From Rhizobium sp. NZLR1 (GTDB lineage: Bacteria; Pseudomonadota; Alphaproteobacteria; Rhizobiales; Rhizobiaceae), in the NCBI RefSeq assembly GCF_017357385.1, contig NZ_CP071637.1:186001-250000 (forward strand): 64,000 bases of DNA, read 5' to 3'. This document shows, piece after piece, positions 1-28,880 of the stretch (position 1 is its first letter; each line of letters begins with the position of its first letter). The notes under the pieces are model-generated. The model did not search any database, was not told where the DNA came from, and saw only the letters and a program-made list of their open reading frames with translations. The position numbers and the translations under genes are program-made.

Positions 1-72
1 CAGGGCCGGGAAGGGTCGAAATATGGGATCGATGACTATGTCGAAATCAAATATCTCTGCCTCAGCATCTGA
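1..72 (+). CDS. NAD-dependent aldehyde dehydrogenase, C-terminal end (partial)
   Basis: The first 23 codons of the window, reading GREGSKYGIDDYVEIKYLCL near the end and stopping at 70-72, match the C-terminal tail of NAD(P)-dependent aldehyde or succinate-semialdehyde dehydrogenases. In that family the Gly-Arg-Glu-Gly turn, the YGIDDY/YGIEEY stretch and the EIKY strand close the oligomerisation domain. The rest of the gene lies outside the window. It is on the same strand as the operon that starts at 580 but is separated by about 500 bases, so membership in that regulon is open. The subfamily cannot be decided from so short a piece. Confidence 0.75.
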   Translation, partial: QGREGSKYGIDDYVEIKYLCLSI

Positions 73-579: not shown

Positions 580-969
580 ATGATGTTGACCGCAGTGAAC
601 CCGCCAGGAAGCGCGTGGCCCGGCGTTTCGCAAGGCGTTATCCTTAAGGGTAGCGGCGTTTTCGTTTCGACAGGGCATGTTGGAACCGACGCGGCCGGCG
701 AGATCATCGTATCTTCGCCGGAAGATCAGATCGTCGCGTTGTTCGACAACCTAAGGGCGACGCTGACCGCCGCTGGCCTGGAGTTTGGCAACGTTGCGCG
801 GATGACCTGCTATGTCAAAAGCTTCGACGAGACGACGATGGCGACCTTGCGTTCCGTCAGAGCCCGTTACTGGAACCAGGACTGCCCGCCCTCAAGCGTG
901 ATTGTTCAGGCGGCCCTCTACGATCCCCGCCTGCTGGTCGAAGCCGAAGTGCTCGCGGTCGTCCCGTAA
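580..969 (+). CDS. RidA/YjgF/YER057c/UK114 family protein, Rid subgroup without the catalytic Arg
   Basis: This 129-residue protein has the small trimeric Rid fold: the VFVSTGHVGTDAAG strand region, the IVALFDNLRATLTAAG helix and the C-terminal LVEAEVLAVV strand. Family members hydrolyse reactive imines and enamines to carbonyls plus ammonia. The usual PARS motif holding the catalytic Arg (Arg105 in E. coli RidA) reads PPSS here, so it fits the Rid4-7 type rather than true RidA. The start at 580 or 583 is not settled; the GGAG at 572-575 favours 583. It is the first gene of a packed operon, and its stop codon overlaps a possible ATG of the FAD oxidoreductase that follows. A role in clearing imines made by that flavoenzyme is inferred. 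Confidence 0.85.
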   Translation: MMLTAVNPPGSAWPGVSQGVILKGSGVFVSTGHVGTDAAGEIIVSSPEDQIVALFDNLRATLTAAGLEFGNVARMTCYVKSFDETTMATLRSVRARYWNQDCPPSSVIVQAALYDPRLLVEAEVLAVVP

Positions 970-983
970 TGCCGGAGGTCTCG

Positions 984-2597
984 ATGAGAAAGTTCGATGT
1001 AATCGTCATCGGCGGTGGCCATAATGGTCTCGTCTGTGCGTGCTATCTCGCAAAGGCCGGACTGAAGGTTTGCGTCGTGGAACGGCAGCCGTTCGTCGGC
1101 GGGGCTGCGATCTCCCGCGAGGTCTGGCCGGGCTTTACGATCTCTGTCGCGTCCTACTGGATGAGCATGCTGCAGCCGAAGATCATGCTCGACCTCGGGC
1201 TCCAGGAAAATGGCGTTGAAGTCATTTCTGTCCCTCCGAGCTTTCATCCGTTCGACAGTGGAAAGAGCATTGTCTATTGGCCCGATGAGCAGCGCTTCGT
1301 CGAGGAACTCGCACAGTTCTCGAAAAAGGACGCCGAGAACTATCCGAAGTTTGCCGCCCATATGGCCGACATCATTCCCTATATCCGCCGGCTGATGTTT
1401 GAGACTCCGGTGGACCCGATGACCGGCAAGATCAAGGACATCACAAAGGCCATGTCGCTTGCCTGGCGGCTACGCGACATCGGTGCCCGCGTCTATGACA
1501 TCTGGGACCTGCTCACCCTCAGCGCTGACGATTATCTGCGCCGCTGGTTCGAAAGCGATGAGGTTTTGACGGCATTCGGCAGTTATGCATCGGGTTCGGC
1601 AGGTCTGATCAGCCCGAAGACCCAAGGCTCAGCCTACGTGCTCGCGAGACCTTACCTGCGCGACAACTCGACATCTGCTGGCGGAGGCGGGCTGATCAAA
1701 GGCGGCATGGGTTCGATATCTGAAGCGCTTCTGCGTGTCGCCAAGGCTCACGGCGTCGAGGTCTTGACCGGTGAGAAGGTTAGGAAAGTCGCTATCAGTA
1801 ACGGCAAAGCCGTTGGCGTCGAACTCGAAAGCGGCCCGCATCTTATAGCCAAGACGGTCGTCTCAAACGCTGGCGCGAAGATGACCTACTTCGACCTGAT
1901 CGGCACAGAACACCTTTCGGACGCCGTCAAGGGCCAGGTCGAGCGCCATCGCACCAAGTCGATTGCCTTTAAGATCAACCTCGCCTGCAATGCATTACCG
2001 CGATGGACGGCCTACGACAGCCGCAGACTAAACGAGCCGAACCCAGGCTCTGTCACACTTGCTGAAAATTCCGACGAGCTGGAAGATGCGTTTCACACCG
2101 CTCAAAACGGTGAGATGGCCAAGCATCCCTATCTCTGGATCACCACGCCGAGCGCCTTTGACGAGACCGTCGCCCCTGAGGGCAAGCATGTGGTTCAGAT
2201 CATGGGCGGACACGTCCCCTACAAACTCAACGGACGTGAGTGGGACGAGGTAACGAAAAAGGAATTGCTCGATATCGTTGTCGCTCAGATTTGTCGCTAC
2301 GCGCCCGGTTTCGAAAAAGAAGTCCTGCACGCCCAGATCCTGACGCCAAAGGACATCGAGGAGATGTTTGCCATGGTTGACGGGCATGTTCACCATGGTG
2401 AGATGAGCCTCGACCAAGTGTTCTTCCGCCGACCGATCCAGCACTACGCCGACTATCGTACACCGATTTCTGGGATGTACATGTGCGGCGCAGCCTGCCA
2501 CCCGGGCGGCGGCGTTAACGGCGTGCCCGGTCACAATGCGGCACGTGAAATTCTCCGGGACCTCGGCAAGGCGTTTCCGGCCAAGGTTCGCCCATAG
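984..2597 (+). CDS. FAD-dependent oxidoreductase, phytoene desaturase/amine oxidase-like (PYROXD2 type)
   Basis: The N terminus carries the dinucleotide-binding motif GGGHNGLVCACYLAKAG followed by the acidic end of strand 2 (VVERQ) and the GGAA motif of the flavin amine oxidase/phytoene desaturase superfamily. The C terminus has the second FAD contact, MYMCGAACHPGGGVNGVPG. Length (537 residues) fits the COG1233/PYROXD2 group. The start at 984 is chosen because GGAGG at 974-978 lies 5 bases upstream; the ATG at 969 would place that Shine-Dalgarno sequence inside the gene. The enzyme likely desaturates or oxidises an amine or ring substrate. The following genes suggest that the product enters CoA-linked degradation. 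The substrate cannot be read from the sequence. Confidence 0.85.
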   Translation: MRKFDVIVIGGGHNGLVCACYLAKAGLKVCVVERQPFVGGAAISREVWPGFTISVASYWMSMLQPKIMLDLGLQENGVEVISVPPSFHPFDSGKSIVYWPDEQRFVEELAQFSKKDAENYPKFAAHMADIIPYIRRLMFETPVDPMTGKIKDITKAMSLAWRLRDIGARVYDIWDLLTLSADDYLRRWFESDEVLTAFGSYASGSAGLISPKTQGSAYVLARPYLRDNSTSAGGGGLIKGGMGSISEALLRVAKAHGVEVLTGEKVRKVAISNGKAVGVELESGPHLIAKTVVSNAGAKMTYFDLIGTEHLSDAVKGQVERHRTKSIAFKINLACNALPRWTAYDSRRLNEPNPGSVTLAENSDELEDAFHTAQNGEMAKHPYLWITTPSAFDETVAPEGKHVVQIMGGHVPYKLNGREWDEVTKKELLDIVVAQICRYAPGFEKEVLHAQILTPKDIEEMFAMVDGHVHHGEMSLDQVFFRRPIQHYADYRTPISGMYMCGAACHPGGGVNGVPGHNAAREILRDLGKAFPAKVRP

Positions 2598-2615
2598 GGA
2601 GGCAGTGGACGGCAG

Positions 2616-3797
2616 ATGAACTACGAGCAATTTACGCCCGAAGAAAACGAAATCGTCTCCACCGTGGAGCGGTTCATCGAAGAGCGCGTCCGGCCAGATG
2701 TCATGGTCTTTGAGAGAGACGGCATCTACCCGCAGGCCATTGTCGAGGAGATGAAAGAGCTTGGTCTCTTCGGGATCGCGGTTCCAGAAGAGTTTGGGGG
2801 CCTCGGCCTCAGGGTTCCGGTCTTTGCCGCCGTTATGGAGATTGTCGCGCGCGGCTGGACCACACTTGCAGCCTATATCAACAGCCATTCGACAGTGGCC
2901 TATGCGATAGCGTCGCACGGAACCGGCGAGCAAAAGGAAAAATACCTACCGGGTCTAGCGACGGGCGATTTCAGGGGCTCGCTTTGCTTGACCGAACCGG
3001 GCTGCGGATCTGATCTCCAGGCCATTCGCGCGAACGCGGTCGACCGGGGAGGGGCCTACGATCTGACGGCGAGCAAAACCTACGTTACAAATGGCGACAA
3101 GGCGACGCTCCTGCTGACGCTGGTCAAGCATCCAAAGGAGAGCCCGGAGGCAAAACAGAAGTTCAGCCTGCTTCTCGTCGATAAAGCCGCCGCCGGCGTG
3201 ACCGTGACCACAACGTTCCACAAGATGGCCTTTGGCTTGGTCGATACCGTGCAAATCGAAATGGACAACGTCGCCGTTCCCAAAGCGAACCTGCTCGGTG
3301 CTGCCGAAGGCAAGGGTTTCCATCAATTGTTCGATTCTCTTGAGATCGGCCGGATTGCGATTGCCATCAGCGCGGTCGGTCTTGCTGCAAATTCACTCTC
3401 TGAAGCAAAGCGCTACGCATCGGAGCGCGTCACCTTCGGTGTGACGATCGACAAGCACCAGGCAATCCAGTTCAAGCTGGCGGACATGGCGACGAAACTC
3501 GTGACCGCGCGTTTGATCACCATGGAAGCAGCCTGGATGAAGGAACGCGGCGGGCGTTGCGACATGATCAGCGCAATGGCGAAAATGTACGCCAGCGACG
3601 CGGCGGTGGAGATCGTTCACGACGCCGTCAAGGTTCACGGGGGCGCCGGCTACATCCAGGAATATGCAGTCGAAAGGCTTTACCGCGAGGCGTTACTTTA
3701 TACGATCGGGGAAGGCACGAACGACATCAACCGGATCGTCATCTCTCGCCGCATCAATGGCGACGAAGAGCAGACCTATCTCGGACTTGTGCCATGA
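2616..3797 (+). CDS. Acyl-CoA dehydrogenase
   Basis: This is a full-length 393-residue acyl-CoA dehydrogenase. The N-terminal helical domain reads LGLFGIAVPEEFGGLGL. The middle domain carries the family signature LTEPGCGSDLQAIRANA, and the C-terminal domain carries KVHGGAGYIQEYAVERLYRE. The catalytic base is present as Glu366 in the GEGTNDINR motif. It introduces an alpha,beta double bond into an acyl-CoA and passes electrons to ETF. It sits between an FAD oxidoreductase and an adenylate-forming ligase, and the stop codon overlaps the next start (ATGA), which indicates translational coupling. The natural acyl group is unknown. Confidence 0.93.
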   Translation: MNYEQFTPEENEIVSTVERFIEERVRPDVMVFERDGIYPQAIVEEMKELGLFGIAVPEEFGGLGLRVPVFAAVMEIVARGWTTLAAYINSHSTVAYAIASHGTGEQKEKYLPGLATGDFRGSLCLTEPGCGSDLQAIRANAVDRGGAYDLTASKTYVTNGDKATLLLTLVKHPKESPEAKQKFSLLLVDKAAAGVTVTTTFHKMAFGLVDTVQIEMDNVAVPKANLLGAAEGKGFHQLFDSLEIGRIAIAISAVGLAANSLSEAKRYASERVTFGVTIDKHQAIQFKLADMATKLVTARLITMEAAWMKERGGRCDMISAMAKMYASDAAVEIVHDAVKVHGGAGYIQEYAVERLYREALLYTIGEGTNDINRIVISRRINGDEEQTYLGLVP

Positions 3798-4621
3798 CCA
3801 CCGTTTGCCTCACCTTCGATTTCGATGCAGTCTCGCTATGGATCAGTTCGCTGAAGCAGACCACGGCCAATCCGATGTCTCGCGGCGAGTTTGCCCCGAG
3901 GGTCGGGTTGCCCAGGGTCTTGGCGCTCCTGTTGGAAAAGGGCGTGAAGGCAACCTTTTTCGTGCCGGCACACACTGCGGTCTCGTTCAACGCCGAGACG
4001 AGGCGCATTCTGGACGACGGCCATGAGATCGGGATCCACGGATACTGTCACGAAACGCCGGTTGGCTTGAGTAAGACCGATGAGGCATCCCTCCTGGATA
4101 AAGCGATCGCCAAACTACGCAATGCGCTCGGCCAGGATTTTACGCCGGTCGGATACCGCTCGCCCGCCTGGGATCTGTCGGAGAATTCGATCGCGCTGCT
4201 CGAAGAGCGGGGCATTGTCTACGACAGCAGCCTGATGGCCGACGACTACAAGCCATATTGGGCCTCGAGAGGCTTTCAAGTCTCGGAAGAAGCATACCAG
4301 GCAGGTCCAGCGTCCAAGGTGGTCGAGATTCCGGTTGCCTGGGAGCTCGACGACTTTCCGCACTTCATGTTTTTGAACAAGCCGCTCTATCTCGGCATGC
4401 GAACCCCGGCTGAGGTCTACGAGCTCTGGCGCGAAGAATTCGATTTCTCGGCCACGATCGAAGGTTCGGTATTCACCTTGACCATGCATCCCGAAATCAT
4501 CGGCCGCGGCCCGCGCATGGCAATGCTGTCGCGCCTGATAGACCACATGAAATCGACATCGGGCACGACGTTCTCGACGGTTGCAGATGCGGCCCGACAT
4601 TGGCGGGTGCGATCTCATTAG
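3794..4621 (+). CDS. Polysaccharide deacetylase (NodB-homology) family hydrolase
   Basis: The 275-residue protein has the NodB-fold motifs: TFDFDA with Asp9 (base) and Asp11 (metal), HGYCH with metal ligands His82 and His86, the Arg-bearing GYRSPAWD motif, and TMHPEIIGR near the C terminus. This arrangement resembles the cytosolic branch with PuuE-type allantoinases, cyclic imidases and HpPgdA rather than secreted chitin deacetylases, and there is no signal peptide. The ATG at 3794 overlaps the acyl-CoA dehydrogenase stop. A longer in-frame extension to 3557 runs inside that gene and is not used. In this operon a carbon-nitrogen bond hydrolysis, such as opening a cyclic amide or removing an N-acyl group, is more likely than polysaccharide work. 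That is inference. Confidence 0.85.
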   Translation: MTTVCLTFDFDAVSLWISSLKQTTANPMSRGEFAPRVGLPRVLALLLEKGVKATFFVPAHTAVSFNAETRRILDDGHEIGIHGYCHETPVGLSKTDEASLLDKAIAKLRNALGQDFTPVGYRSPAWDLSENSIALLEERGIVYDSSLMADDYKPYWASRGFQVSEEAYQAGPASKVVEIPVAWELDDFPHFMFLNKPLYLGMRTPAEVYELWREEFDFSATIEGSVFTLTMHPEIIGRGPRMAMLSRLIDHMKSTSGTTFSTVADAARHWRVRSH

Positions 4622-4742
4622 CCTGCCTAAGGGCCAGTTGCGCCCGCCGAATTGGGCGCGACGGGACAGTCTTTCTTCTGACAGGTCCTCAGGGCCAGTG
4701 ACAAAAAGCGATATGGCCGTTATCGCAAACGAGGGTTTGAAC

Positions 4743-6266
4743 GTGACAGACAATTCCGCAGCGCCATTTCCATCCGTCTTTGCAGCCCTTGAGGCTTCGG
4801 TTCGGACAAACCCTGACAAGGTGGCTGTTATTTTTGAAGATCAGTCCCTGAGCTACCGGCAATTGCTCGAGAAGGTCGACAACACGGCGCGCCATCTGCT
4901 GGCGCTTGGTATAGGCAAAGGCGAAACCGTTGCCGCATTTGCGCAAAACCGCCCTGAGCTGATTTATTGTTACTATGCTGCGGCCAGATTGGGAGCAATC
5001 TTCGTGCCGCTCAATCCAAACCTGACGCAAAGCGAAGTCAAATACAGCTTCCGACACAGCGACGCAAAAATCCTGTTCTACGACGACTTGGTCGCCGATA
5101 CCGCCAAGGGCGCAGTCGCTGCAGAGGCGCTCGTCCCCATGAGCCGGTTAGGAAACGTTCTGCCCGCAACGGAAATCGCCGCGCCATCGGTCGAGCCGGA
5201 CGACGACTTCCTGATCATTTACACGTCCGGCTCAACAGGAGCGCCGAAAGCAATCATTCTTGATCACAAGGCGCAGATCAATTGCCCGATCGCCCTGGCA
5301 AGGCTATGGGGCGTGACGTCGGCCGACAGGACGCTTGTCGCGCTGCCGCTCGGCTATCTGTATGGACTCTCGACCGCCGCTGCAGCGGGACTGCAGGCAG
5401 GCGGGACGGTAATCATTCTTCGCCGCTTCCACCCGCGCGACGTCCTGGAAGCCTTCATCGAACACAAGGTTTCGGTATTCCACGGTGTGCCGACTATGTT
5501 TTCCATGATGCTTGAATATTGCGAGCAACGTGATCTCAAGTTCGATCTGAGCAGCGTGCGCAAATTGATCTGCGCCGGCGCCCCCCTCTCGGACGAAATG
5601 GCCCGCCGTTTCGAGGGCAAGTTTGCGAGATCGCTGGAAAATTACTACGCGCTGACCGAATGCACCCCGGTCTTCGGACGGTATTTTGATGACGCACACG
5701 CTCTCCCTGATGGCTCGATCGGTCGGGCGGCGCCCGGCGCGATCGTCAAGATTATTCGCTCAGATGGAAGCGAGTGCGCCGTGGATGAGGACGGCGAGCT
5801 CCTTGTACAGGCAGCCGCCACGATGAAGCGGTATTTGAAAAATCCTGAGATGACGCAGGCCTCTATGACCGATGGCCTCTTTAGAACAGGGGATCTCGTC
5901 AAGCGCGACGAAGACGGCTTCTTCTACATCACCGGCCGCATTAAGGAGATCATCATTCGCGGCGGGGCGAATATCTCGCCCTCCGAGGTCGAAAAGGTAT
6001 TGATCGCTCATCCAGGTGTCCAGGATGCGGCCGTCATTGGCGCAACTGACCGCATCTTCGGGGAGATCCCAGTCGCAATTGTCGTGCGCCGTCACGGATC
6101 GGAGGTGACGCAGGACGAGCTCATTGCGCATGTCGAAGCCACTTTGTCCGACTTCAAAGTGCCACGCACGATCTTCTTCGAGCCAGTCCTGCCCCAGGGA
6201 AAGACTGGAAAGACCGACAAGAAGCTTCTGAAAGAGCGTTTCGAGCCGCTTTTGGCAGCTCGCTGA
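4743..6266 (+). CDS. AMP-dependent acyl-CoA synthetase/ligase (class I adenylate-forming enzyme)
   Basis: It activates a carboxylic acid to its CoA thioester via an acyl-adenylate. The P-loop-like A3 motif YTSGSTGAPKAI, the A5 region ENYYALTECTPVFGR, the A7 motif FRTGDLVKRDEDGFFYITGR with the hinge RIKEIIIRGGANISP, and the A10 lysine region GKTGKTDKK are all present. The GTG at 4743 is preferred because GAGGG (4731-4735) lies 7 bases upstream; an ATG at 4713 is possible and would add 10 residues. The 507-residue length is typical. It probably supplies the CoA ester used by the acyl-CoA dehydrogenase and the MaoC hydratase of the same cluster. Substrate specificity is not decided. Confidence 0.9.
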   Translation: MTDNSAAPFPSVFAALEASVRTNPDKVAVIFEDQSLSYRQLLEKVDNTARHLLALGIGKGETVAAFAQNRPELIYCYYAAARLGAIFVPLNPNLTQSEVKYSFRHSDAKILFYDDLVADTAKGAVAAEALVPMSRLGNVLPATEIAAPSVEPDDDFLIIYTSGSTGAPKAIILDHKAQINCPIALARLWGVTSADRTLVALPLGYLYGLSTAAAAGLQAGGTVIILRRFHPRDVLEAFIEHKVSVFHGVPTMFSMMLEYCEQRDLKFDLSSVRKLICAGAPLSDEMARRFEGKFARSLENYYALTECTPVFGRYFDDAHALPDGSIGRAAPGAIVKIIRSDGSECAVDEDGELLVQAAATMKRYLKNPEMTQASMTDGLFRTGDLVKRDEDGFFYITGRIKEIIIRGGANISPSEVEKVLIAHPGVQDAAVIGATDRIFGEIPVAIVVRRHGSEVTQDELIAHVEATLSDFKVPRTIFFEPVLPQGKTGKTDKKLLKERFEPLLAAR

Positions 6267-6298
6267 CTAGCCAGTGATCAACCTCTTGGAGTGATGCG

Positions 6299-7735
6299 AT
6301 GGACCGTTCGCAATATCGATCCCTTGATGGCCTGAGCCTTGCCTCTTTGCTTCATTCCCGGCAAGTCTCTTCTGCAGAACTGATGCGCTGTGCGCTGGTC
6401 CTGGCCGAAGACTGCGACAACGAGTTTAATGCGCTTTGCTATGTCAGGCCGGAAGAAGCCTTAGCTCAGGCGGAAACGTCCGAGCTTAGGGGGCAGTTTG
6501 GTGCCCTGCCGTTCCTGTTGAAGGATTCCGGGCTTGCTTCGACGACCTTGCCGTCCAGTGTCGGCTCCCGCCTGTTTGCTGGGCTCAAATCACCGATCAA
6601 CGCGACGCTGAACGAGCGGTTCATTTCCGATGGGTTTATCTCCTTCGGCCGCACGACAGTTCCGGAATTCTGCATGGCGCCGACAACGGAGGCCGTGCAG
6701 AACTCGGGTCCCACGCTCAACCCCTGGGACAAGACGCGGTCGGCGGGTGGATCGAGCGGTGGTGCTGCGGTCGCAGTCAGCACGGGTGTTGTTCCGATCG
6801 CCCATGGCAGTGACGGGGGCGGTTCGATCCGCATTCCTGCCGCCTGCTGCGGTGTCTTTGGTCTGAAGCCGTCACGCGGGCTGGTGCCGCTCGGACCATC
6901 CCGCGGGGAGGCCTGGGGCGGCCTTGCTGCCGACGGCGTCCTGACCAGGACGGTGCGCGATACAGCAGCCGCTTTGGACGGCATTGTTGGTATGGAGATC
7001 GGCGCACCCTATGCTGCCCCGAAGGTTCCGGGAAAGTATCTGGACCTGCTTGATGTCGCGTTCGACCGGCCGCTGAGGATCGCCACGTGGACGCAAGCTT
7101 TCGACGACATCCCCGTCGCGAATGAATGCATTGCGGCCGTCGATCAAGCCGCCCGGCTCTTGGCGTCCATGGGGCACGAGGTGGTGTCGGCTCCGCTTCC
7201 GGATCTCAAATACAAGAGCTTTCTTCGCGCCCATCAGGACGTCCTTGCCGCAAGTGTTACATTGACCGTCAACGGCAAGCTGCGGTCGAGCCCGGACGCG
7301 GCCTGGCGCGAAAAGCTTGAGCCGGCGATCGTCGACGCCTACGACATCGGCACCACCTTGAGCGCGGAGACATACGCGCTTGCCATCAACCGCTTTCATG
7401 CGCTTGCCCGGCAAATGGAAGTCTACATGTCCTGTTACGATTTCGTATTGTCGCCGACGCTGACGCAACTTCCCGCCAAGCTCGGCATAATGACGATGGA
7501 GAGCGACTTCAGGACGTTCCGCAACCGTGTCGGTGAATACACGACGTTCCTGGCGATCATCAACGCCTCCGGTCAGCCGGCCACCAATGTTCCTCTATAC
7601 TGGACAGAGGACGGTATTCCTGTCGGCATCCAGTTCATCGGTCATTTCGGCAAGGAATCCGAGCTCCTTCGCCTCTCGGCCCGGCTGGAAGAGGCCGCGC
7701 CCTGGATAGATCGCTATCGAGGTCGGGTTTCATAA
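6299..7735 (+). CDS. Amidase (amidase signature family)
   Basis: This 478-residue protein has the amidase-signature core. Lys75 sits in LPFLLKDSG, the cis-Ser is Ser152 in AGGSSGG, and the nucleophile is Ser176 in GSDGGGSIR. The 24-residue spacing between the two serines matches fatty acid amide hydrolase. It hydrolyses an amide to acid plus ammonia or amine in the cytosol. It ends the first operon, 32 bases after the ligase gene, so the freed acid could be the substrate of the neighbouring ligase. Homologues include AtzF, GatA-like and 6-aminohexanoate-cyclic-dimer hydrolases. The absence of a GatB/GatC partner argues against tRNA amidation. Confidence 0.92.
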   Translation: MDRSQYRSLDGLSLASLLHSRQVSSAELMRCALVLAEDCDNEFNALCYVRPEEALAQAETSELRGQFGALPFLLKDSGLASTTLPSSVGSRLFAGLKSPINATLNERFISDGFISFGRTTVPEFCMAPTTEAVQNSGPTLNPWDKTRSAGGSSGGAAVAVSTGVVPIAHGSDGGGSIRIPAACCGVFGLKPSRGLVPLGPSRGEAWGGLAADGVLTRTVRDTAAALDGIVGMEIGAPYAAPKVPGKYLDLLDVAFDRPLRIATWTQAFDDIPVANECIAAVDQAARLLASMGHEVVSAPLPDLKYKSFLRAHQDVLAASVTLTVNGKLRSSPDAAWREKLEPAIVDAYDIGTTLSAETYALAINRFHALARQMEVYMSCYDFVLSPTLTQLPAKLGIMTMESDFRTFRNRVGEYTTFLAIINASGQPATNVPLYWTEDGIPVGIQFIGHFGKESELLRLSARLEEAAPWIDRYRGRVS

Positions 7736-7763
7736 ACCAAATCAGAACAATAGCTTGACTATT

Positions 7764-7780
7764 TTGACCAATAGGTCGAA
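7764..7780. promoter_or_regulatory. TetR operator-like palindrome before the maoC gene
   Basis: TTGACCAATAGGTCGAA at 7764-7780 has inverted half-sites (TTGACC/GGTCGAA) and shares TTGACCAAT with the site before tetR. It lies 38 bases upstream of the maoC start, next to a TTGACT sequence that could be a -35 element. Control by the TetR protein at 8441-9046 is inferred from the shared motif. Confidence 0.65.
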
Positions 7781-7818
7781 AAAAAGACTAACAAGTATTC
7801 TAATCTTAAGGAGAGGTT

Positions 7819-8292
7819 ATGACTGGCGAACTCAAGGTAGGGCCGAACGCAAAATTCTTCGATGATTTCGAGGTCGATCAGAACTGGATCACGCCGCGTC
7901 GCACGATTACCGAAGCCGACATCGTCATGTTCGCGGGTATGACGGGTGACTTTAACCCGGTCCACACAGACGAGGAATTTGCAAAGACAACACCGTTCGG
8001 CACACGCATTCTGCATGGGCCCGCAGTCTTCGCGATCGCGACCGGCCTTGAATTTCGTCTGGGCTTGAAGGAAGGAACCGCAATCGCCTTCCTCGGCATG
8101 ACCTGGAACCTAAAGGCTCCCGTCAAGATCGGTGACACCATTCATGTCTATCAAAAGGTCGCCGGCGTTCGCGCCACCAGCAACCCGGCGCGTGGCATCG
8201 TCAACTTCTGGGTCGAGGTCCGCAATCAGGAAGGCACCGTTTGCCAAGAAGGCGAGTGGAAGGTCATGTTCCACTCAAAGGCTGCTGCTTGA
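7819..8292 (+). CDS. MaoC family (R)-specific enoyl-CoA hydratase/dehydratase
   Basis: This 157-residue hot-dog-fold protein has the hydratase 2 motif GDFNPVHTDEEFAKTTPFG, with the Asp44/His49 dyad and the following LHGPAVFAIATG helix. MaoC-type enzymes add water to an enoyl-CoA or handle other acyl-CoA double bonds, and so complement the acyl-CoA dehydrogenase of the preceding operon. A clear GGAGAGG precedes the ATG. It has its own operator-like palindrome and faces the tetR gene, with a hairpin between the two ends. Confidence 0.9.
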   Translation: MTGELKVGPNAKFFDDFEVDQNWITPRRTITEADIVMFAGMTGDFNPVHTDEEFAKTTPFGTRILHGPAVFAIATGLEFRLGLKEGTAIAFLGMTWNLKAPVKIGDTIHVYQKVAGVRATSNPARGIVNFWVEVRNQEGTVCQEGEWKVMFHSKAAA

Positions 8293-8440: not shown

Positions 8441-9046
8441 CTACGCCTTGCAGCCGTTTAGAATGATCTCGACATAATGGTTGGCGATGTCGTTCGGTGA
8501 AAGCTGTCCCTTCGGCTTGAACCATGCGTGCGTGAAATTGCACATGCCGATGATCGAACTGACGATCAGATAGGTCGGGATGTCGCGGAAGATGCCTGCT
8601 TCCACGCCTTTGACGTAAGCGTTCTTGAAAAGCTGGTCATATTCCCGCTTGCGCTTGACGATGATTTTCTGCTGATCATCGGTCAGTTCACCCTGATCAC
8701 GGAAATAGATCGCAGTCCAGGCCGCGCGACCCATGACGTTCAGCGCATGTTTGCGGATCATTGCACCCAGAAGCTCGTCAGCGGGCAAGTCCGTCTCGAT
8801 GATGGCGACCATATCCTGCCACCAGGCTTCATGGATACGCTGGAAGATCTCCCACAGGACCTGATTCTTGTTCTTGAAATAATAGTAGACGACGGACTTT
8901 GTGTAGCCCAGGCTTTTTGCGATATCGTCGATGGTGACAGCGCGAATGCCGGTCTCCGCAAAAAGTGTAGCAGCAGCAGTCAGGATTTCCTCCTGAACAT
9001 AGGCTTGCTTTTTCGCCTTCAGCTCTTCCCGCACTTTCAAATTCAT
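8441..9046 (-). CDS. TetR/AcrR family transcriptional regulator
   Basis: The 201-residue protein has a TetR N-terminal domain: ILTAAATLFAETGIRAVTIDDIAKSLGYTKSVVYYYFKNKNQ covers helices 1-4 at about residues 21-62, in the form usual for FadR/KstR-like repressors of acyl-CoA pathways. The start at 9046 gives the normal spacing before helix 1. A longer frame to 9181 would cross the operator and is rejected. A palindrome 128 bases upstream fits autoregulation. Similar sites before maoC and before the ridA-like operon suggest that it represses the whole cluster until a pathway acyl-CoA binds. Confidence 0.9.
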   Translation of the reverse strand: MNLKVREELKAKKQAYVQEEILTAAATLFAETGIRAVTIDDIAKSLGYTKSVVYYYFKNKNQVLWEIFQRIHEAWWQDMVAIIETDLPADELLGAMIRKHALNVMGRAAWTAIYFRDQGELTDDQQKIIVKRKREYDQLFKNAYVKGVEAGIFRDIPTYLIVSSIIGMCNFTHAWFKPKGQLSPNDIANHYVEIILNGCKA

Positions 9047-9337: not shown

Positions 9338-9997
9338 CTAGGCCGTATGCCGGCCAAGCCGCCTTTCAAGCGACGACACGAGAATTGTTGCCGGAATACA
9401 GATGGACGCATAAAGCAGGCCCGCAAGTAGAAGGATCGGCAGATACTGGAACGTGGTGGTGCCGATCATATAGGCCTGCGACAGCAGTTCCGGCAGAGCG
9501 ATCGCAAAGCAAAGCGACGTGGCCTGGAGCATAAGTATCGCAAAGCCCAGCAGGGCAGGGGCCGCTACGCGAAGTCCTTGCGGGACGATCACATAGCGAA
9601 GCGCATCGAGTGATGTGAAACCCACGGCCACGGCGGCTTCCTTCTGGCCGTGGGGAACGGCCTGCAGTCCGGCCCGAATGATCTCGCTGGTATAGGCCGC
9701 GGTCGTCCAGGATAAGGCAGCGGCGGCAGCGGCAAAGGATGTCAGACTGATACCAGTGCTTGGAAGGCCGTAATAGGCAAATTGCAGCAGGATGAGTGCT
9801 GGTGCACCGCGGCCGATCTCGACCACGAAAATCGATATCGCGCGAGCGAACATTGATTTTGCCTGAACGCCCAATGCCAGTATTAATCCCAGCGGAATGC
9901 CGATGAACAGGGCGACCCCCGTCACCTCAAGGCTCACAAGAAGCCCGTCGACCATCGTTGGCAGGTTTTCTTGCCAGAAATCGATAAGATCGCTCAT
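9338..9997 (-). CDS. Polar amino acid ABC transporter permease (HisM/GlnP type)
   Basis: This 219-residue inner-membrane permease has the N-terminal signature LLVSLEVTGVALFIGIPLGLILALG and the EAA loop EAAVAVGFTSLDALRYVIVPQGLR that docks the ATPase. It overlaps the next permease by four bases (ATGA). Together with the following two genes it forms an ATPase-permease-permease importer of the histidine/glutamine/opine type. No periplasmic binding protein is encoded beside it. Confidence 0.93.
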   Translation of the reverse strand: MSDLIDFWQENLPTMVDGLLVSLEVTGVALFIGIPLGLILALGVQAKSMFARAISIFVVEIGRGAPALILLQFAYYGLPSTGISLTSFAAAAAALSWTTAAYTSEIIRAGLQAVPHGQKEAAVAVGFTSLDALRYVIVPQGLRVAAPALLGFAILMLQATSLCFAIALPELLSQAYMIGTTTFQYLPILLLAGLLYASICIPATILVSSLERRLGRHTA

Positions 9998-10638
9998 CGG
10001 GCCACCTTTGCACGCATGACGCCGTCACTGTAGCGGGCGAGAGCCGCAACAGGCAGACTGATGAGAATGTAAAGCAGGCCGGCGACCGCAAAGACCTCGA
10101 GACCTTCGAAATTGCGGCGCGACACGAAACTGGCCTGGAAGGCGACTTCTGTGACGCCGACCGTCGAGGCAATGGCTGAATCCTTCAGGAGCCCAATAAT
10201 GTAGCTCGTCGCTGACGGAAGGATGACCCGGATCAGCTGTGGGGCCATGATGTCGAAAAATACCGACCAACCCGGCATGTTCAGCGCGCGTGAGGCTTCC
10301 CACTGCCCGACATGGATGCTCTTCAACGCGCCGCGATAGATCTCGGCCATGTTCGCGCCAGTGATGACGCCCAGCGCAACGATCGCAGACTCGACCGGGC
10401 CGACCTGAAGGTATCCAGAGCCAATTCCGAAATAGAGGAAGAACAGGCATACGATGGGCGGAATCGACCGAAAGGTCAAAATGAGTGCAGTTGCAAGCGC
10501 GCGAAGCAACCACGACCGCGACACTTTCATGGCACAGAGTGGGAGCCCAAGCAGCGCTCCGAACACGAACGCCCCGATCGTGATGGCGATCGTCCAGGGA
10601 ATGCCACTCAAAATGATAGCGAATGATTCTGCGTTCAT
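9994..10638 (-). CDS. Polar amino acid ABC transporter permease (HisQ type)
   Basis: This 214-residue permease starts at [20 protein letters not shown] and carries the [15 protein letters not shown] segment and the EAA-type loop [24 protein letters not shown]. The start at 10638 overlaps the ATPase stop by four bases; the longer frame to 10956 only re-reads the ATPase gene in another phase. It pairs with the permease at 9338-9997 to form the membrane channel. Confidence 0.92.
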
Positions 10639-11429
10639 CGGTTCTTGACCGCCTGTAGAAAGCGTTGCGCCCGCTCCGTCTGAGGGTTGCGCATTAGCGA
10701 TTCGCTCGGACCCTCTTCGAGGATGCGGCCATCGGCCATGATGATCACACGATCGGAGACGGTTTCCGCGAAGTGCATCTCGTGGGTGACGACGATCATG
10801 GTCATTCCACCCTCGGCAAGCTCCTTCATGACGGCGAGGACTTCCAGACCGAGTTCCGGGTCGAGTGCGGAGGTCGGCTCGTCGAACAGCATGATTTTCG
10901 GGTCGAGAGCAAGCGCGCGCGCAATCGCGATACGCTGCTGCTGACCACCCGAACACCGCACGGGATACTGATCGCCTTTGTTCTCCAGCCCGACACGTTT
11001 GAGAAGGGCAAGCGAGCGCCTGTCGGCTTCGGCCTTGCTACGGCCGAGCACACGCTGCTGCGGCAGGCTGACATTGGCCAGCACCGACATGTGCGGGAAA
11101 AGATTGAACGATTGAAATACCATGCCGGCGGCGCGCCGAAGTTCGGTCAGTTGCTTTTTCGTGGCAGGACGCTTGGCATCAACGCTGATGCCGGCGATGC
11201 GGATCGAGCCCTGTGTCGGCGGCTCGAGCTGATTGAGGCATCGTAGAAGCGTGCTTTTGCCAGAGCCACTCGGCCCGATGATGGCAACGACCTCACCCGT
11301 CTTCATGGTAAAGTTAATATCTTCCAGGACCCGATGTGTTCCAAAGGACTTTTCGACGTTCGAAACACGAAGGATTTCCTCTGCCTGTTGCGATTGCTCG
11401 GTCCGGGATTGCTCATTCATCGAGGACAT
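10635..11429 (-). CDS. Amino acid ABC transporter ATP-binding protein (GlnQ/HisP type)
   Basis: Walker A is GPSGSGKST, the Q-loop is [17 protein letters not shown], the signature is [15 protein letters not shown], Walker B is [14 protein letters not shown] and the H-loop is VVTHEM. This is the complete layout of polar amino acid importer ATPases. The chosen ATG at 11429 has a weak AGG upstream. A TTG at 11516 has a much better AAGGGAG seven bases ahead and would add 29 polar residues. It is the first gene of the three-gene operon. Confidence 0.93.
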
Positions 11430-14679: not shown

Positions 14680-15513
14680 TCAGACATCCGAGGCAAAGGC
14701 CTTGGAGATAAGATTTACGCTTGCGACCAAGGATACAATAGCAGCAGAGTTGAAGGCAACGATCCACCAATACCCACTGGTCAGAAAGCCGTAGCTGTCG
14801 GCGATTGACAAGCCCCAGTCGGCAGACGGTGGTTGTATGCCTAAGCCTAGGAAACTAAGTGTGGCCACCGAAAAGAATGCAAAGCCTAGTCTTAACGTAA
14901 ATTCGATTAAGACAGTGTCGCGGATGTTCGGAAGAATTTCGAAGAACACGATGCCGAAGCCGCTTTGGCCAGACAGCCGCGCCGCCTGGACGTAGTCCCG
15001 TGCTAGTTGTTCTCTGGTGGCGGCCCTAACAGTTTTCGCGACAAGCGGGGTATAGGCGAGGCCAATCACAACGATGACGGTAGAATTCGCTGGTCCGAGA
15101 GCGACGATCGCCATCGTCACCAAGACGACAAACGGTAGTGACATGAATGCATCGAGAAGCCTGCCGGCGATCATGTCGAGAATTCCGCCAAAGTAGCCGA
15201 TCAGCATTCCAACGACCGTTCCAAGCGCCACGCCAAGCGCCGTCGCTACGGGGGCGACCATAAGAATGTCACGCGATCCGACGAGAATCCGGGAAAAGAC
15301 GTCGCGGCCCAGCTGATCGGTCCCAAACCAATGCACAACGTCAGGCGGTGACAGACCCGTGAGTATGTCATCGGCCATTGGGTCAAACGGCACAAGCCAG
15401 GCGCCGAAGAGAGCGCAGCCGATCCAGAACGCCAGGATAGTGACGCCGATAGTCGATGCCCAGTTCATTTGCCTCCAGCCGCTGAGGCGTAGATTGGCCG
15501 CGATAGCCCTCAT
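14680..15513 (-). CDS. Peptide/nickel-type ABC transporter permease (DppC-like)
   Basis: This 277-residue permease has the DppC/OppC features: an N-terminal membrane helix (TIGVTILAFWIGCALFGAWL), the FGTDQLGRDVFSRIL motif after it, and the C-terminal SFLGLGIQPPSADWG motif. It overlaps the DppB-like gene upstream by four bases. With the DppB-like permease, the family 5 binding protein and the double ATPase at 20419-22260 it makes a complete importer. Confidence 0.93.
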   Translation of the reverse strand: MRAIAANLRLSGWRQMNWASTIGVTILAFWIGCALFGAWLVPFDPMADDILTGLSPPDVVHWFGTDQLGRDVFSRILVGSRDILMVAPVATALGVALGTVVGMLIGYFGGILDMIAGRLLDAFMSLPFVVLVTMAIVALGPANSTVIVVIGLAYTPLVAKTVRAATREQLARDYVQAARLSGQSGFGIVFFEILPNIRDTVLIEFTLRLGFAFFSVATLSFLGLGIQPPSADWGLSIADSYGFLTSGYWWIVAFNSAAIVSLVASVNLISKAFASDV

Positions 15514-16469
15514 CGTCCTGTCCTTACTCTCTGGCGAGGGTCCAGCAGCGTCTGAAGCAAGTCGCCTAACGCTGCAGCCAAGACATAAATTGTCGCCATC
15601 GCCAGGACACCACCTTCGAGCAAAGGAAAGTCTCTGGCCTTTGCAGCACTCAGTATGAGATTGCCAAGACCCTGGATACCGAAGAGCGTTTCGATGACGA
15701 CCAGACCGCCGAAAAGATAGCCGGTCTGTGTTGCTATTACGGCAACGGTCGGCACCAGGGCATTGCGCAAAATATGCCGGGTGATGACCGTTCGTCTGGT
15801 GAGGCCCTTAAGGACAGCTGTTCGAGTGTAGTCGGCAGCAGACGCTTCGATGAAACCTGCACGCGTCGTTCGAGCGACATAGCAGGAAAGATTTAAAACC
15901 AGGGGCAGGGCTGGCAGAATTAGATACTGAAGCTCCTGTAGAAGATTGGAGCCTTCCGGAGCCGAGCCTGACAACGGCAACCATCCCACCCAAAGACCGA
16001 AGACCATCATCAGAAGTAGGCCTGACACGAAGTCCGGCACGGTCGCAATGGCGATGCCAAAGAAAAGGATGCTCCGGTCGACCAAAGAACCTGGTCTCAG
16101 ACCGCAGAGAACCCCACCGCCTATGCCGAGTGGCAGAAGCAAAGCCATGATGATCGCCGCAAGCAACGCAGAATGGCCAAGGCTGTAGACGATGAGTGGG
16201 CCTGCGTCTGACTGGAATGACAGCGACAGCCCAAAGTCACCTCTGAGAGCGTGACCGAGCCAACGTATGTATTGCAGCAGAGCCGGTTGATCGGTTCCAA
16301 GTCTGTGGTTCAAAGCCGCAACCGCATCAGCGTCAGCAAAAGGTCCGAGCATGACCCTTCCCACATCACCGGGAAGGATCTGCCCGCACATAAAGACAAT
16401 GACGCTGACCAGCCAAAGCGTTAGGCCCAGAAGGCCAAGCCGGGCAGCAACTTTGACTATGACATTCAT
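15510..16469 (-). CDS. Peptide/nickel-type ABC transporter permease (DppB-like)
   Basis: This 319-residue permease carries the DppB N-terminal pattern (LGLTLWLVSVIVFMCGQILPGD), the RLGTDQPALLQYIRWLGHALRGDFG segment and the EAA-like LKGLTRRTVITRHILRNALVP loop. Its stop overlaps the start of the DppC-like gene, and it begins 14 bases after the binding-protein gene, so all three are co-transcribed. Confidence 0.93.
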   Translation of the reverse strand: MNVIVKVAARLGLLGLTLWLVSVIVFMCGQILPGDVGRVMLGPFADADAVAALNHRLGTDQPALLQYIRWLGHALRGDFGLSLSFQSDAGPLIVYSLGHSALLAAIIMALLLPLGIGGGVLCGLRPGSLVDRSILFFGIAIATVPDFVSGLLLMMVFGLWVGWLPLSGSAPEGSNLLQELQYLILPALPLVLNLSCYVARTTRAGFIEASAADYTRTAVLKGLTRRTVITRHILRNALVPTVAVIATQTGYLFGGLVVIETLFGIQGLGNLILSAAKARDFPLLEGGVLAMATIYVLAAALGDLLQTLLDPRQRVRTGR

Positions 16470-16483
16470 ATTTTTGTGCCCGG

Positions 16484-18127
16484 TCAGACGAATGAGGCTT
16501 TGTCCAGAAGGAGTTGCGAGATTGCCGTAAATCTGACCCCCTGTACCTTGGCGCTGGTGATGCGGCTGTACTGAGAGAAGTAAGGGATGATCACCGGAGT
16601 CTCATCGAGGAGGATGTTCTGAATTTTTCCGGCAGCTAGACGCTGGCTTTGAAGGTCTCGTGCCTTGCTATAATCGAGCAGAAGCCCGTCGTACTGTGGA
16701 TTCTTGAAGTGAGCTGCATTCCAGGCGCCATCGCTCTTGAGGGTGGCGTTCAGGAAAATGTCGGGCGTGCCTCGATGACCGTAGTCGGTGATACCCAGTG
16801 TGGAGTCAAGCCAGTTCGAATTCCCGAAGGTCGCGGCACCATAATAGGCGTCCTGCGGCAGGATGTTCAGTTTGATCGCAATTCCGACCTGTTTCGCGAA
16901 ATTTTGAACGAGAACTGCATAGTCAGGAATGCTGTAAGCGCGTTCCGTCGTCAGGGTGACCTCGAAGCCGTTCGGCACGCCAGCTTCTGCAAGAAGCTTT
17001 TTGGCCTGAGCGATGTCCTGCTTACGCTGGGGCACCGATGGGTCGGACGATGGAAAAATCGGAGCAAAGGGTGTGTCGTTGCCGACAATCGCTCTGCCTT
17101 TGAAGAGGCCCTTGACCAAGGCATCACGGTCGATCGTCAGCGCCAAGGCCTGGCGGACGCGTTTGTCCTGGAAGGGCGACTGGTCGACGCGAAGATGCAA
17201 CTCTTCGTGCGTGCTTGCTTGGACGCTGATGATCTTGAACGCAGGGTTCTTCTCTACGGCCAGGATCGTTCGCGACGTTTCGGGGATGACGTCCACCTGA
17301 CCGGCCTGCAACGCGAGGAGCTGCGCCTGTGGATCATCGAAGAACTTGATGTCGACTTGATCAGGAAGGGCTTTTTCTCCCCAGTAGTCGGGATTGCGGA
17401 CGAAAGTTGCGCCCTGCTTGGGGCGGAAAGACTGCAACTTGAATGGGCCCGTTGCATTGAAGTGGTTCTGGAAGTCGCCTTTGTAGTCCGCAGGCAGGAT
17501 GATCGCATTGAAGACGTCCGACGAGACGTAGAAGGGGAAGTTGCTGTTAGGCTGAGCCAATGTGAAGGAGACCGTCAAATCATCCTTCGCCTTGATCGAG
17601 CCCGGAAGGATCAAGCCTTTGTACGCTGAAAGCGCGGAAGATCCCGAAGATGGGTTGACCAGTCGTTCGAACGTGGCAACGACGTCCTTCGCAGACAGAA
17701 CCTGGCCGTCGTGAAACTTAACGCCGGAGCGAAGCTTGAATGTCCATTCGGTGGCATCGTCATTGCCGGACCAGGACACGGCCAACGACGGTTGGAGGCC
17801 ATGCTCGGAGTCGTCAAAGAGCAGATACTCGCCGACTTGGCTGATAACACCGATGCTCGCTGGGTCGGTGACCGACACGGGATCGATAGCGCCGGTCGGC
17901 TGATCCAAAGCCACCCGAATTTTCCCGCCTGGCTTTCCTGTCGCGGCTCGTGCCGACGACGGCATGCCCAAGCCTTGCGACGCGGCGAGGCCGGTCAGGC
18001 CCAGCAGTGAGGCATATTTGAATAGATCACGTCTGGACAGGAAACCTGCCTGGTGTTCATCGACGGCTACGTTCCACAGGTCACCAGACATATTGCGTAT
18101 GCCATTGAGGTCGTCTCGGCTTGTCAT
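16484..18127 (-). CDS. ABC transporter substrate-binding protein, family 5 (DppA/OppA type), Tat-exported
   Basis: This 547-residue periplasmic protein has the SBP_bac_5 layout: LAVSWSGNDDATEWTFKLRSGVKFHDG near residue 110, then RVRQALALTIDRDALVKG. The N terminus has a twin-arginine motif SRRDLFKYAS (Arg32-Arg33) before a hydrophobic stretch and an Ala-rich cleavage region, so export by Tat is likely. The cargo could be a peptide, opine, sugar or sulfur/nitrogen compound. The monooxygenase next door suggests a xenobiotic-like molecule. Confidence 0.92.
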   Translation of the reverse strand: MTSRDDLNGIRNMSGDLWNVAVDEHQAGFLSRRDLFKYASLLGLTGLAASQGLGMPSSARAATGKPGGKIRVALDQPTGAIDPVSVTDPASIGVISQVGEYLLFDDSEHGLQPSLAVSWSGNDDATEWTFKLRSGVKFHDGQVLSAKDVVATFERLVNPSSGSSALSAYKGLILPGSIKAKDDLTVSFTLAQPNSNFPFYVSSDVFNAIILPADYKGDFQNHFNATGPFKLQSFRPKQGATFVRNPDYWGEKALPDQVDIKFFDDPQAQLLALQAGQVDVIPETSRTILAVEKNPAFKIISVQASTHEELHLRVDQSPFQDKRVRQALALTIDRDALVKGLFKGRAIVGNDTPFAPIFPSSDPSVPQRKQDIAQAKKLLAEAGVPNGFEVTLTTERAYSIPDYAVLVQNFAKQVGIAIKLNILPQDAYYGAATFGNSNWLDSTLGITDYGHRGTPDIFLNATLKSDGAWNAAHFKNPQYDGLLLDYSKARDLQSQRLAAGKIQNILLDETPVIIPYFSQYSRITSAKVQGVRFTAISQLLLDKASFV

Positions 18128-18148
18128 TGTTTGGCTCTCTCTAAAAAA

Positions 18149-18928
18149 TCAGGAAACTGGTTTGCCGTCGACGCGGATTTCGTCGACCGCCTGTGGGTAA
18201 AAGGCGATCAGACCCTTGATCTTCGGAATTTCGGGAAGCGGGGCCTCGTAGCTCCAGGCGACATCTGCCCCATCCTCACCGATTTCAGGGGAATAAGACC
18301 AATAGGATGCGATCCCCTTATAGGGGCAGCGCGACGTGCTGGAGGACACTGTCAGCGTATCCATCCGGATATCCGACGGCGGGATGTAGTAGCGGGTTGG
18401 AAGGTGCGTCTCGAAAAGGAAGACAGCATTTGTCGTGTCCGCGATGACCTCGCCATTGAGCTTGACCTGCAAATGGCTCGAGCTGGATATTGTGTCTACG
18501 CGGGCGTAAGGGTCGCGAGGGTGGACGAAAATCTCTTCGTCTTCTTCGAACCACTGGTCCACGCTCTTCCAGCGGAACGCTATATGGTCTTTCAGGATCT
18601 GCAGCGCCGGGTCATCAATTTCCACAGGCGACCATGCTGCTTCCAAAGATGTCCGATCCCCGATCGTCAATCCCCAGTTCAAAACTTCAAATCCCAGTTC
18701 ATGCTTCGAACGGGTTGGCTCCGTATCAAGCAGACCGGTCCTGACCGACGATTTCGGGAAAAAATAGATCGGCAAAAACTGATTGCTTCTGAGGATCAGA
18801 GCTTCCCGACTGTCAGCCACCGTCTCGCCAGCAAATTTAACCCGGACGCGTTTCGGGCTGTGCAGGACGTTCGTCAACACAGGCGTGTTTGGTTCGCGCG
18901 GCTGCAATTTTATCGCTCCATTGCTCAT
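18149..18928 (-). CDS. Tandem DUF427 domain protein
   Basis: The 259-residue cytosolic protein has two DUF427 (NTP_transf_9) repeats. The first, around residues 28-115, has the pattern KRVRVKFAGETVADSREALIL and then PIYFFP. The second, around 148-240, has LQVKLNGEVIADTTNAVFLFE, then RYYIPPSDI and CPYKGIASYWS. The biochemical role of DUF427 is not established. The gene sits 21 bases after the binding-protein start, inside the same minus-strand run as the monooxygenase, with AGGAAAGG before its ATG. It may be an accessory factor of this metabolic operon. Confidence 0.85.
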   Translation of the reverse strand: MSNGAIKLQPREPNTPVLTNVLHSPKRVRVKFAGETVADSREALILRSNQFLPIYFFPKSSVRTGLLDTEPTRSKHELGFEVLNWGLTIGDRTSLEAAWSPVEIDDPALQILKDHIAFRWKSVDQWFEEDEEIFVHPRDPYARVDTISSSSHLQVKLNGEVIADTTNAVFLFETHLPTRYYIPPSDIRMDTLTVSSSTSRCPYKGIASYWSYSPEIGEDGADVAWSYEAPLPEIPKIKGLIAFYPQAVDEIRVDGKPVS

Positions 18929-18946
18929 GGGATGACCTTTCCTGGA

Positions 18947-25767: not shown

Positions 25768-25862
25768 TTCTCTTTCTCCTCCCGCAAGCGGTTTCATCTG
25801 GGCGCCAAGGTCGTCCATAGGCGACGATGCGCTGATCGGCATCAAACGCCAACGCGAAACTC

Positions 25863-25900
25863 TCGTCAATTATTTTATCGACAAAAATAGTTATTGACGA
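25863..25900. promoter_or_regulatory. Palindromic operator candidate in the divergent promoter of the ring-degradation cluster
   Basis: Inverted arms TCGTCAAT (25863-25870) and ATTGACGA (25893-25900) are separated by 22 A/T-rich bases. The octamer CGACAAAA also repeats directly at 25879 and 25898. The element lies between the divergent VOC and FAH genes. A GntR dimer pair is the likely binder, given the adjacent regulator gene. This is inference. Confidence 0.5.
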
Positions 25901-26018
25901 CAAAACATGCTTATGTCAGTTTTTCGACATCAAGCAGTTCTTGCGATCGGCGTACCGGACCTAACGACGCCCACATAGACATCGCAAACGTGTCGATCTT
26001 TTTTTGGAGGAGAAAAGT

Positions 26019-28222: not shown

Positions 28223-28257
28223 CCGTATTCATCTATCTTAAGTACCGGAGGACGGAC

Positions 28258-28818: not shown

Positions 28819-28880
28819 GGATTATTGTCGTCCGTCGCGTTGACGGAGGGAGTGGTAGTGCCAGGCACAGGGAGGAGAAT

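Follow-up and report, generated by a model that had tools for sequence, protein, structure and literature searches.

The window analysed here, a stretch of 64,000 nucleotides from Rhizobium sp. NZLR1 (contig NZ_CP071637.1, positions 186,001 to 250,000), carries near its start a compact operon of seven enzyme genes of catabolic type, followed on the opposite strand by genes for a regulator and for an ATP-binding cassette (ABC) transporter. These genes are, in window positions (labels of the form L031 denote loci, and of the form G040 genomes):

580..969, + strand, Rid-family protein without the catalytic arginine (PF01042, 63 bits)
969..2597, + strand, FAD-dependent oxidoreductase of the phytoene-dehydrogenase/CrtO-like group, here FADox (PF01593 of the amine-oxidase/phytoene-dehydrogenase group, 65 bits)
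2616..3797, + strand, acyl-coenzyme A (CoA) dehydrogenase, here ACAD (N-terminal, middle and C-terminal domains of the family)
3794..4621, + strand, polysaccharide-deacetylase-fold hydrolase nearest to HP0310, here PDAC (PF01522)
4713..6266, + strand, AMP-forming acyl-CoA ligase (PF00501, 278 bits; PF13193, 67 bits)
6299..7735, + strand, amidase of the amidase-signature (AS) family (PF01425, 278 bits)
7819..8292, + strand, MaoC-type hydratase (PF01575, 89 bits)
8441..9046 (about), - strand, TetR-family regulator (PF00440, PF17932)
9338..9997, - strand, ABC transporter permease of polar amino acid type (85% homologue at the same place in L031)
9994..10638, - strand, second ABC transporter permease (88% homologue in L031)
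10635..11420, - strand, ABC transporter ATP-binding protein (named amino acid ABC transporter ATP-binding protein in plasmid records with similar DNA)

All seven enzyme genes are open reading frames (ORFs) of the + strand and each scores above the Pfam cut-off for its superfamily, which bears out the superfamilies named in a first-pass annotation of this DNA; the starts of the PDAC (3794) and ligase (4713) genes were set from translations. The same annotation spoke of several ATGA overlaps, whereas we count one (ACAD/PDAC, 3794-3797) together with one TAATG overlap (Rid/FADox, 967-971), the remaining junctions being gaps of 18, 91 (taking 4713 as the first base of the ligase gene), 32 and 83 bases. 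The GC content is 58.2% in the operon, 57.1% in the window and 56.8 and 57.7% in two upstream stretches.

An alignment of the PDAC proteins of the window genome (G000) and of G040 was used to scan named genomes, and 40 loci were recovered. A PDAC sharing 52% identity or more with the window's (range 52-87%) defines a set of 21 loci, which includes the window, L027 (in G040), L074 (in G122) and the annotated Rhizobium plasmids L102 and L103; L051, which comes from the same metagenome-assembled genome (MAG) as L040 and has its PDAC broken at a contig end, lies outside the set and is present in the Rid and racemase alignments. Counting genes within the flanking DNA examined at each locus, window included, we found the ligase in 20 of the 21 (one partial), MaoC in 20, Rid in 16, the AS amidase in 15, ACAD in 11 plus a fragment, and FADox in 10 (homologues 54-89% identical), with TetR orthologues, 51-94% identical, in nine loci other than the window. 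Gene content, and often order too, is repeated across the 21 loci, and this recurrence exceeds chance; the loci are partly non-independent, L036, L066 and L103 having almost the same sequence.

The hosts are alpha-, beta- and gammaproteobacteria and include Rhizobium, Ensifer, Ancylobacter, Shinella, Fuscovulum and Rhodobacteraceae MAGs, Paraburkholderia oxyphila, Ralstonia soli and a Pseudomonas. The last of these, Pseudomonas sp. URMO17WK12:I11, has the most compact complete cluster (L045), in which about 15 kb hold transporter genes and genes for a racemase-family protein, a short-chain dehydrogenase/reductase (SDR), ACAD, PDAC, MaoC, the ligase, a nitrilase-family protein, Rid, FADox, a thioesterase, TetR and a lyase-like protein. 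The seven genes had been taken for an entire pathway; the comparison widens the unit beyond 580-8292, to an SDR, a citryl-CoA-lyase-like protein, a protein of the Asp/Glu/hydantoin racemase family, a thioesterase, an electron-transfer flavoprotein (ETF) and an ABC transporter of amino-acid type.

The cluster is rare and its spread patchy. Of 397 genomes drawn from the order, three (G000, G040 and G122) have a PDAC match scoring more than 400 bits, the first two of them contributing the proteins of the query alignment, and 112 of the 397 have some PDAC match at E 1e-30 or better. Among 385 genomes drawn from the class, the window's own is the only one with an ACAD match at 1e-130 or better, a cut-off that may lose orthologues near 50% identity, with at most four candidates scored per genome among the matches listed; a search of ACAD against the plasmids at E 1e-100 gave no match, and the best near full-length FADox match among 36 genomes of the same genus is 37% identical (G025). 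The idea, in the first-pass annotation, of a catabolic-type gene set accompanied by a regulator is supported, and a transporter goes with it. A published pathway for homologous clusters was also looked for; searches of the open-access (PMC) literature aimed at the cluster brought up neither a pathway with this gene set nor any description of it. We conclude that the cluster is real, conserved and of catabolic type, and that within the reach of these searches it is undescribed; we are confident that its genes form one conserved catabolic pathway.

Among 16 PDB matches of the PDAC the best is 3qbu, the Helicobacter pylori protein HP0310 (E 4e-47); 3rxz (E 3e-38) comes next, and the allantoinase PuuE, 3cl6, is at E 9e-12. 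Residues D10, H81 and H85 are invariant in all 21 cluster PDACs and in the 16 rows of a second PDAC alignment, window included, and the aligned 3qbu has the same residues; they correspond to the Asp-His-His metal site. The earlier label of a NodB-type hydrolase holds at the level of the superfamily (PF01522) but not for NodB itself, whose model (TIGR04243) gives 24 bits against a cut-off of 240 and to which the gene context is contrary too. PuuE allantoinase, which shares the fold and a small cyclic substrate, was likewise rejected: its model (TIGR03212) gives 59.8 bits against a cut-off of 424.6, and PuuE structures match far more weakly than HP0310.

In the description of the Aspergillus cyclic imidase HxnM, HP0310 is named as its closest structural homologue, and HxnM is given as 64.2% identical to a cyclic imide hydrolase homologue of Pseudomonas putida (PMC9304392). 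The lower nicotinate pathway of Aspergillus nidulans, as outlined in the same source, runs from HxnW, which makes the imide, through HxnM, which opens the ring, to the amide hydrolase HxnN, which deamidates and for which fatty acid amide hydrolase is the nearest structure, and it yields a hydroxy-dicarboxylate (PMC9304392). SDR, PDAC and amidase match this series of a dehydrogenase leading to a cyclic imide, an imidase and an amide hydrolase. The Hxn pathway differs in being fungal and, as far as that description goes, in having no CoA ligase, ACAD, MaoC or citryl-CoA-lyase-like enzyme, and it is likened to the cluster by description only; the imidase of P. putida YZ-26 is a single enzyme, likened to the PDAC only via HxnM and HP0310. 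At L041, in a gammaproteobacterial MAG, a PDAC (56%) and an AS amidase (60%) form a divergent pair with no CoA genes in 19 kb, and this pairing without the other genes counts for imide or hydantoin chemistry.

The AS amidase has its best PDB match in 3a2p, a 6-aminohexanoate-cyclic-dimer hydrolase (E 4e-62), and K75, S152, S153 and S176 are invariant in all 15 sequences; K75, S152/S153 and S176 correspond to the Lys-Ser-Ser triad of this family, to which fatty acid amide hydrolase also belongs. A nylon-oligomer (6-aminohexanoate) pathway, suggested by the PDB match, was rejected: the AS family is a broad one, and such a pathway has no place for PDAC, MaoC and lyase. Over the 21 loci the second amide hydrolase is of the AS family in 15 and of the nitrilase family in three, neither being seen in the other three. 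In L042, L043 and L045 a nitrilase-family gene (PF00795) lies directly 3' of the ligase gene, at the position of the AS amidase in the alphaproteobacterial relatives, the proteins of L042 and L045 being 57% identical. The amidase slot beside the PDAC is exchangeable between unrelated families.

Plasmids extend this view of the PDAC neighbourhood. We considered 17 annotated regions, hand-picked from 40 listed of 117 PDAC-homologue records and mostly one per genus (an eighteenth, L112, was unannotated and left out), and in 13 of them a carbon-nitrogen hydrolase of another family (AS, nitrilase, M20, C45, hydantoinase, asparaginase or amidohydrolase) lies within three genes of the PDAC homologue. 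As a control, 26 of 165 genes (16%) of four of the same plasmids lie within three genes of such a hydrolase, five of the 165 being hydrolases themselves (by product name, counted by eye, and omitting peptidases, HypF, fumarylacetoacetase, glucosamine-6-phosphate deaminase and a polysaccharide deacetylase). Under a binomial model, 13 of 17 has a probability of 5e-8 at a rate of 16% and 9e-7 at 20%, and 11 of 15, with the two cluster plasmids removed, one of 1e-6 and 1e-5, figures that are rough because the regions are non-random and the plasmid gene tables incomplete. SDR-type genes occur within four genes in 8 of the 17 regions (no control count), and hydantoinase-type genes within five genes in five (L104, L106, L114, L115 and L119). 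In the window genome itself (6.86 Mb) the AS amidase has seven matches, including a broken fragment; an amidase gene fragment with three stop codons lies at G000:C4:185144-185515.

Turning to the CoA part, the best PDB match of ACAD is 4iv6 (E 3e-94), and D44 and H49 of MaoC, which we take to be the hydratase dyad, are invariant in all 20 sequences. The lyase-like protein of the window genome (C6:172567-173385) passes the citryl-CoA lyase subfamily model NF004869 (315.6 bits, cut-off 212) and matches the citryl-CoA lyase 6hxp with E 9e-37, although its substrate may differ. By family, these enzymes would suit an acid with a second carboxyl near the thioester, activated by the ligase, desaturated by ACAD, hydrated by MaoC and cleaved by the lyase. 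The racemase-family protein (PF01177, 92.5 bits) has allantoin racemase and hydantoin racemase as best PDB matches, and its gene, 46-79% identical, occurs in the examined DNA of 8 of the 20 other loci. C78 and C183 are invariant in 11 rows (10 distinct sequences) and correspond to the two catalytic cysteines of the Asp/Glu/hydantoin racemase family, which holds other activities too. Another PDB match of the racemase, OpaE, gave no lead, being a fungal biosynthetic enzyme. The substrate-binding protein has general amino-acid-type matches; the Arg and Asp by which members of that family contact an amino acid seem to be retained in it, a weak sign.

Taken together, these families would allow the following route. 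A ring-bearing, probably amino-acid-like nitrogen compound would be imported by the adjoining ABC transporter; FADox and SDR would oxidise this substrate, which might be a cyclic amine or a hydroxylactam, and so form a cyclic imide or a hydantoin, whose stereoisomers the racemase-family protein may interconvert; and the PDAC would open the ring. Because unrelated amidases swap at one place, we propose that the second enzyme, the AS amidase or, in the beta- and gammaproteobacterial relatives, the nitrilase-family protein, would remove nitrogen to leave a dicarboxylate. This would be converted by the AMP-forming ligase to a CoA thioester, desaturated by ACAD and hydrated by MaoC, and the citryl-CoA-lyase-like enzyme encoded upstream may then cleave the product to acetyl-CoA and an oxo-acid. 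Reduced flavin would be reoxidised via the upstream-encoded ETF and ETF-quinone oxidoreductase (ETF-QO), and a C4 product may be processed further by GabT and GabD.

That the cluster performs imide or hydantoin ring-opening chemistry is the reading we favour from the sequence data, tentatively and with a confidence just short of even. Its generalisation, a bacterial route of oxidation to an imide, a deacetylase-fold imidase, an exchangeable amidase and CoA-thioester dehydrogenation, hydration and citryl-CoA-lyase-type cleavage with an arginine-less Rid as regular partner, is proposed with clearly more reserve. As substrate, the nitrogen-containing carboxylate, cyclic amine or N-acyl compound first suggested is possible. 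Compounds resembling tricarballylate, biotin, pantothenate, mimosine or opines were also considered as conceivable substrates.

Several points weigh against imide or hydantoin ring opening by this route. The step order is an inference from chemistry, the evidence being gene content, conservation, families and active-site residues, and we know of no activity for any close homologue. In the paper on it, HP0310 was inactive on every compound assayed, allantoin included, and others are said there to have described it, from a crude test, as deacetylating peptidoglycan (PMC3084791). The examined DNA of L035, L036, L066, L102 and L103 showed no FADox or ACAD, the FAD proteins present there with an ETF being different ones, and neither was seen in L039, L042 and L044, so that the oxidative front end is variable or encoded elsewhere. 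Neither an AS amidase nor a nitrilase-family gene was seen in L027, L044 and L074, one of which is 3.8 kb only, and four of the 17 plasmid regions have no carbon-nitrogen hydrolase within three genes (at four genes in L111 and L117, none in L113 and L116). The racemase and lyase-like genes occur in part of the loci only: the examined flanks of L031-L034 hold no lyase-like gene, the rest of those genomes being unsearched, and no close racemase (a 35% match in L033 only).

Another reading of the ring opener, hydantoin salvage, is unlikely in our view without being negligible. Here racemase, PDAC (as hydantoinase) and the AS or nitrilase-type enzyme (as carbamoylase) would together convert a 5-substituted hydantoin or a ureide to a free amino acid, which FADox would deaminate and whose side chain the CoA enzymes would degrade. 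The allantoin and hydantoin racemases that head the racemase matches speak for it, as do the hydantoinase/oxoprolinase genes found next to the PDAC relative in L104, where a racemase-family gene is present too, and up to five genes away in L106, L114, L115 and L119. The iprodione degraders YJN-5 and YJN-D add to this, since both carry a PDAC homologue (43% identical to that of the window, 98.9% between the strains) on the sole segment, about 1.3 kb, shared by the 14.8-kb regions compared. PMC9869045 cites Zhang et al. (2021) for ddaH as the gene that opens the hydantoin ring and lists both strains with it; the PDAC homologue is a candidate ddaH, an identity whose candidate status tempers the argument. 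The iprodione route ipaH-ddaH-duaH resembles the cluster in its amide step and hydantoin-ring opening and differs in that the text consulted describes no CoA-dependent part (PMC9869045). No N-carbamoylase model was passed, the nitrilase-type protein of L045 giving 59 bits against 410 for N-carbamoylputrescine amidase, and the conserved ligase, MaoC and lyase-like protein need an extra assumption about the side chain.

The reading that goes back to the first-pass annotation is one we now judge improbable: a cyclic amine acid or lactam would be oxidised, Rid would deal with the imine, and hydrolysis of the amide, activation with CoA and steps resembling beta-oxidation would follow. It agrees with the adjacency of Rid and FADox in the window, L031-L034, L037, L038, L043 and L045, and with the class III aminotransferase genes that adjoin or lie close to the FADox homologues of L022 (46%) and L026 (35%), one of the five FADox regions (L023) being unannotated and left out. 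The catalytic arginine of Rid is, however, missing from all 17 cluster sequences (L051 included, three identical), which read Pro-Pro-Ser/Ala against the Pro-Ala-Arg of RidA in an alignment checked against two window-genome Rid proteins that carry the arginine; TIGR00004 gives 41 bits, below its cut-off of 106, and we rejected an archetypal RidA on both grounds. According to Niehaus et al., this arginine (Arg105) is essential for imine hydrolysis, subfamilies without it appear unable to hydrolyse imines, and about 10% of RidA proteins carry Ser at this position (PMC4433059), so that imine handling by Rid loses its footing. Amine oxidation also leaves the PDAC family and the racemase without explanation, and imide or hydantoin chemistry is better supported than plain amine oxidation. 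A carotenoid CrtI/CrtO enzyme was rejected for FADox, which is family-like only (CrtO model 277 bits, cut-off 1000; crtI family 119 bits, cut-off 238). A variant set in L102, L103, L035 and L036 has two other FAD proteins and a FixAB-type ETF beside MaoC, lyase and Rid.

A PDAC that deacetylates N-acetyl sugars or peptidoglycan (NodB or PgdA) and stands in the operon for another reason is very improbable: this would suit the superfamily PF01522 and what others reported for HP0310, the nearest solved relative (PMC3084791), but the NodB model falls tenfold short of its cut-off (24 against 240 bits), peptidoglycan deacetylase models stay far under theirs, and the PDAC is kept with ligase and MaoC in 20 of the 21 loci.

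The genes of this set are not all of one origin in the window genome. Its close relatives L031-L034 have an SDR gene between FADox and ACAD, where the window operon has none, and L031 and L034 have a substrate-binding protein gene between TetR and the permease, a place where the window lacks one; a homologue of the latter lies upstream in the window genome, at about C6:170581-171399. The best SDR homologue of the window genome, at C6:167543-168322, about 18 kb upstream and adjoining a racemase-family gene, is 64% identical to the SDR of G040 (next genome match 42%) and only 50% to that of L031. The sole good lyase-like match is the gene at C6:172567-173385 described above; SDR and lyase-like genes are 13-19 kb upstream of the operon and, with the racemase gene, outside the window. 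In the trees, the window PDAC groups with L031 and L032 (0.997) and its MaoC with L032 (0.941), whereas the lyase-like protein falls with L042, L045 and L027 (1.000) and the SDR near L043, L042 and L044, apart from L031-L034 (L074, a partial gene, was omitted from the SDR tree). With SDR and lyase of a different gene lineage from the operon, two pathway lineages appear to be combined in the window genome, as a mosaic set.

Two further genes precede the operon:

1..72, + strand, 3' end of a GabD-like succinate-semialdehyde dehydrogenase gene (complete gene C6:184594-186072)
C6:183310-184590, GabT-like gene, 5' of the GabD-like gene

The GabD-like protein reaches 714 bits with the succinate-semialdehyde dehydrogenase subfamily model (cut-off 646) and the GabT-like protein 849 bits with the gamma-aminobutyrate transaminase model (cut-off 724); both also occur in the examined DNA of L032, L102 and L103, and L038 has GabD alone. 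An adenylate-kinase gene (PF00406; L001:14570-15274, C6:182570-183274) adjoins the ETF genes, apparently the same gene being at that place in L032 and L033 (from translations), and an isocitrate/isopropylmalate-dehydrogenase-family gene lies beside the cluster in L035, L039 and L044 (PF00180 for L039; homologues in the others). Further upstream of the window, C6:150001-168000 (L071) holds more genes of catabolic appearance: two GMC oxidoreductase genes, another racemase-family gene sharing 53% identity with the first one, a second substrate-binding protein gene and, from translations only, genes for an aldehyde dehydrogenase and a branched-chain-type ABC transporter. Within the window, peptide-type ABC transporter genes (from translations) and a luciferase-like monooxygenase gene (18947-20305, PF00296) occupy 14680-20305, and 24880-30752 carries a second catabolic-looking set with dioxygenase-like, fumarylacetoacetase-like, M24-like and cupin genes (from translations only), its last gene coding for an FAD monooxygenase of aromatic-ring-hydroxylase type (PF01494).

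If imide or hydantoin ring opening is the right reading, it would give a function to the HP0310-like cytoplasmic 'polysaccharide deacetylases' and to the arginine-less Rid proteins, two groups without a settled role. The cluster would then serve an overlooked nitrogen and carbon source of soil and plant-associated bacteria, and the swapping of unrelated amidases beside one ring opener would make imide and hydantoin pathways recognisable in genomes.

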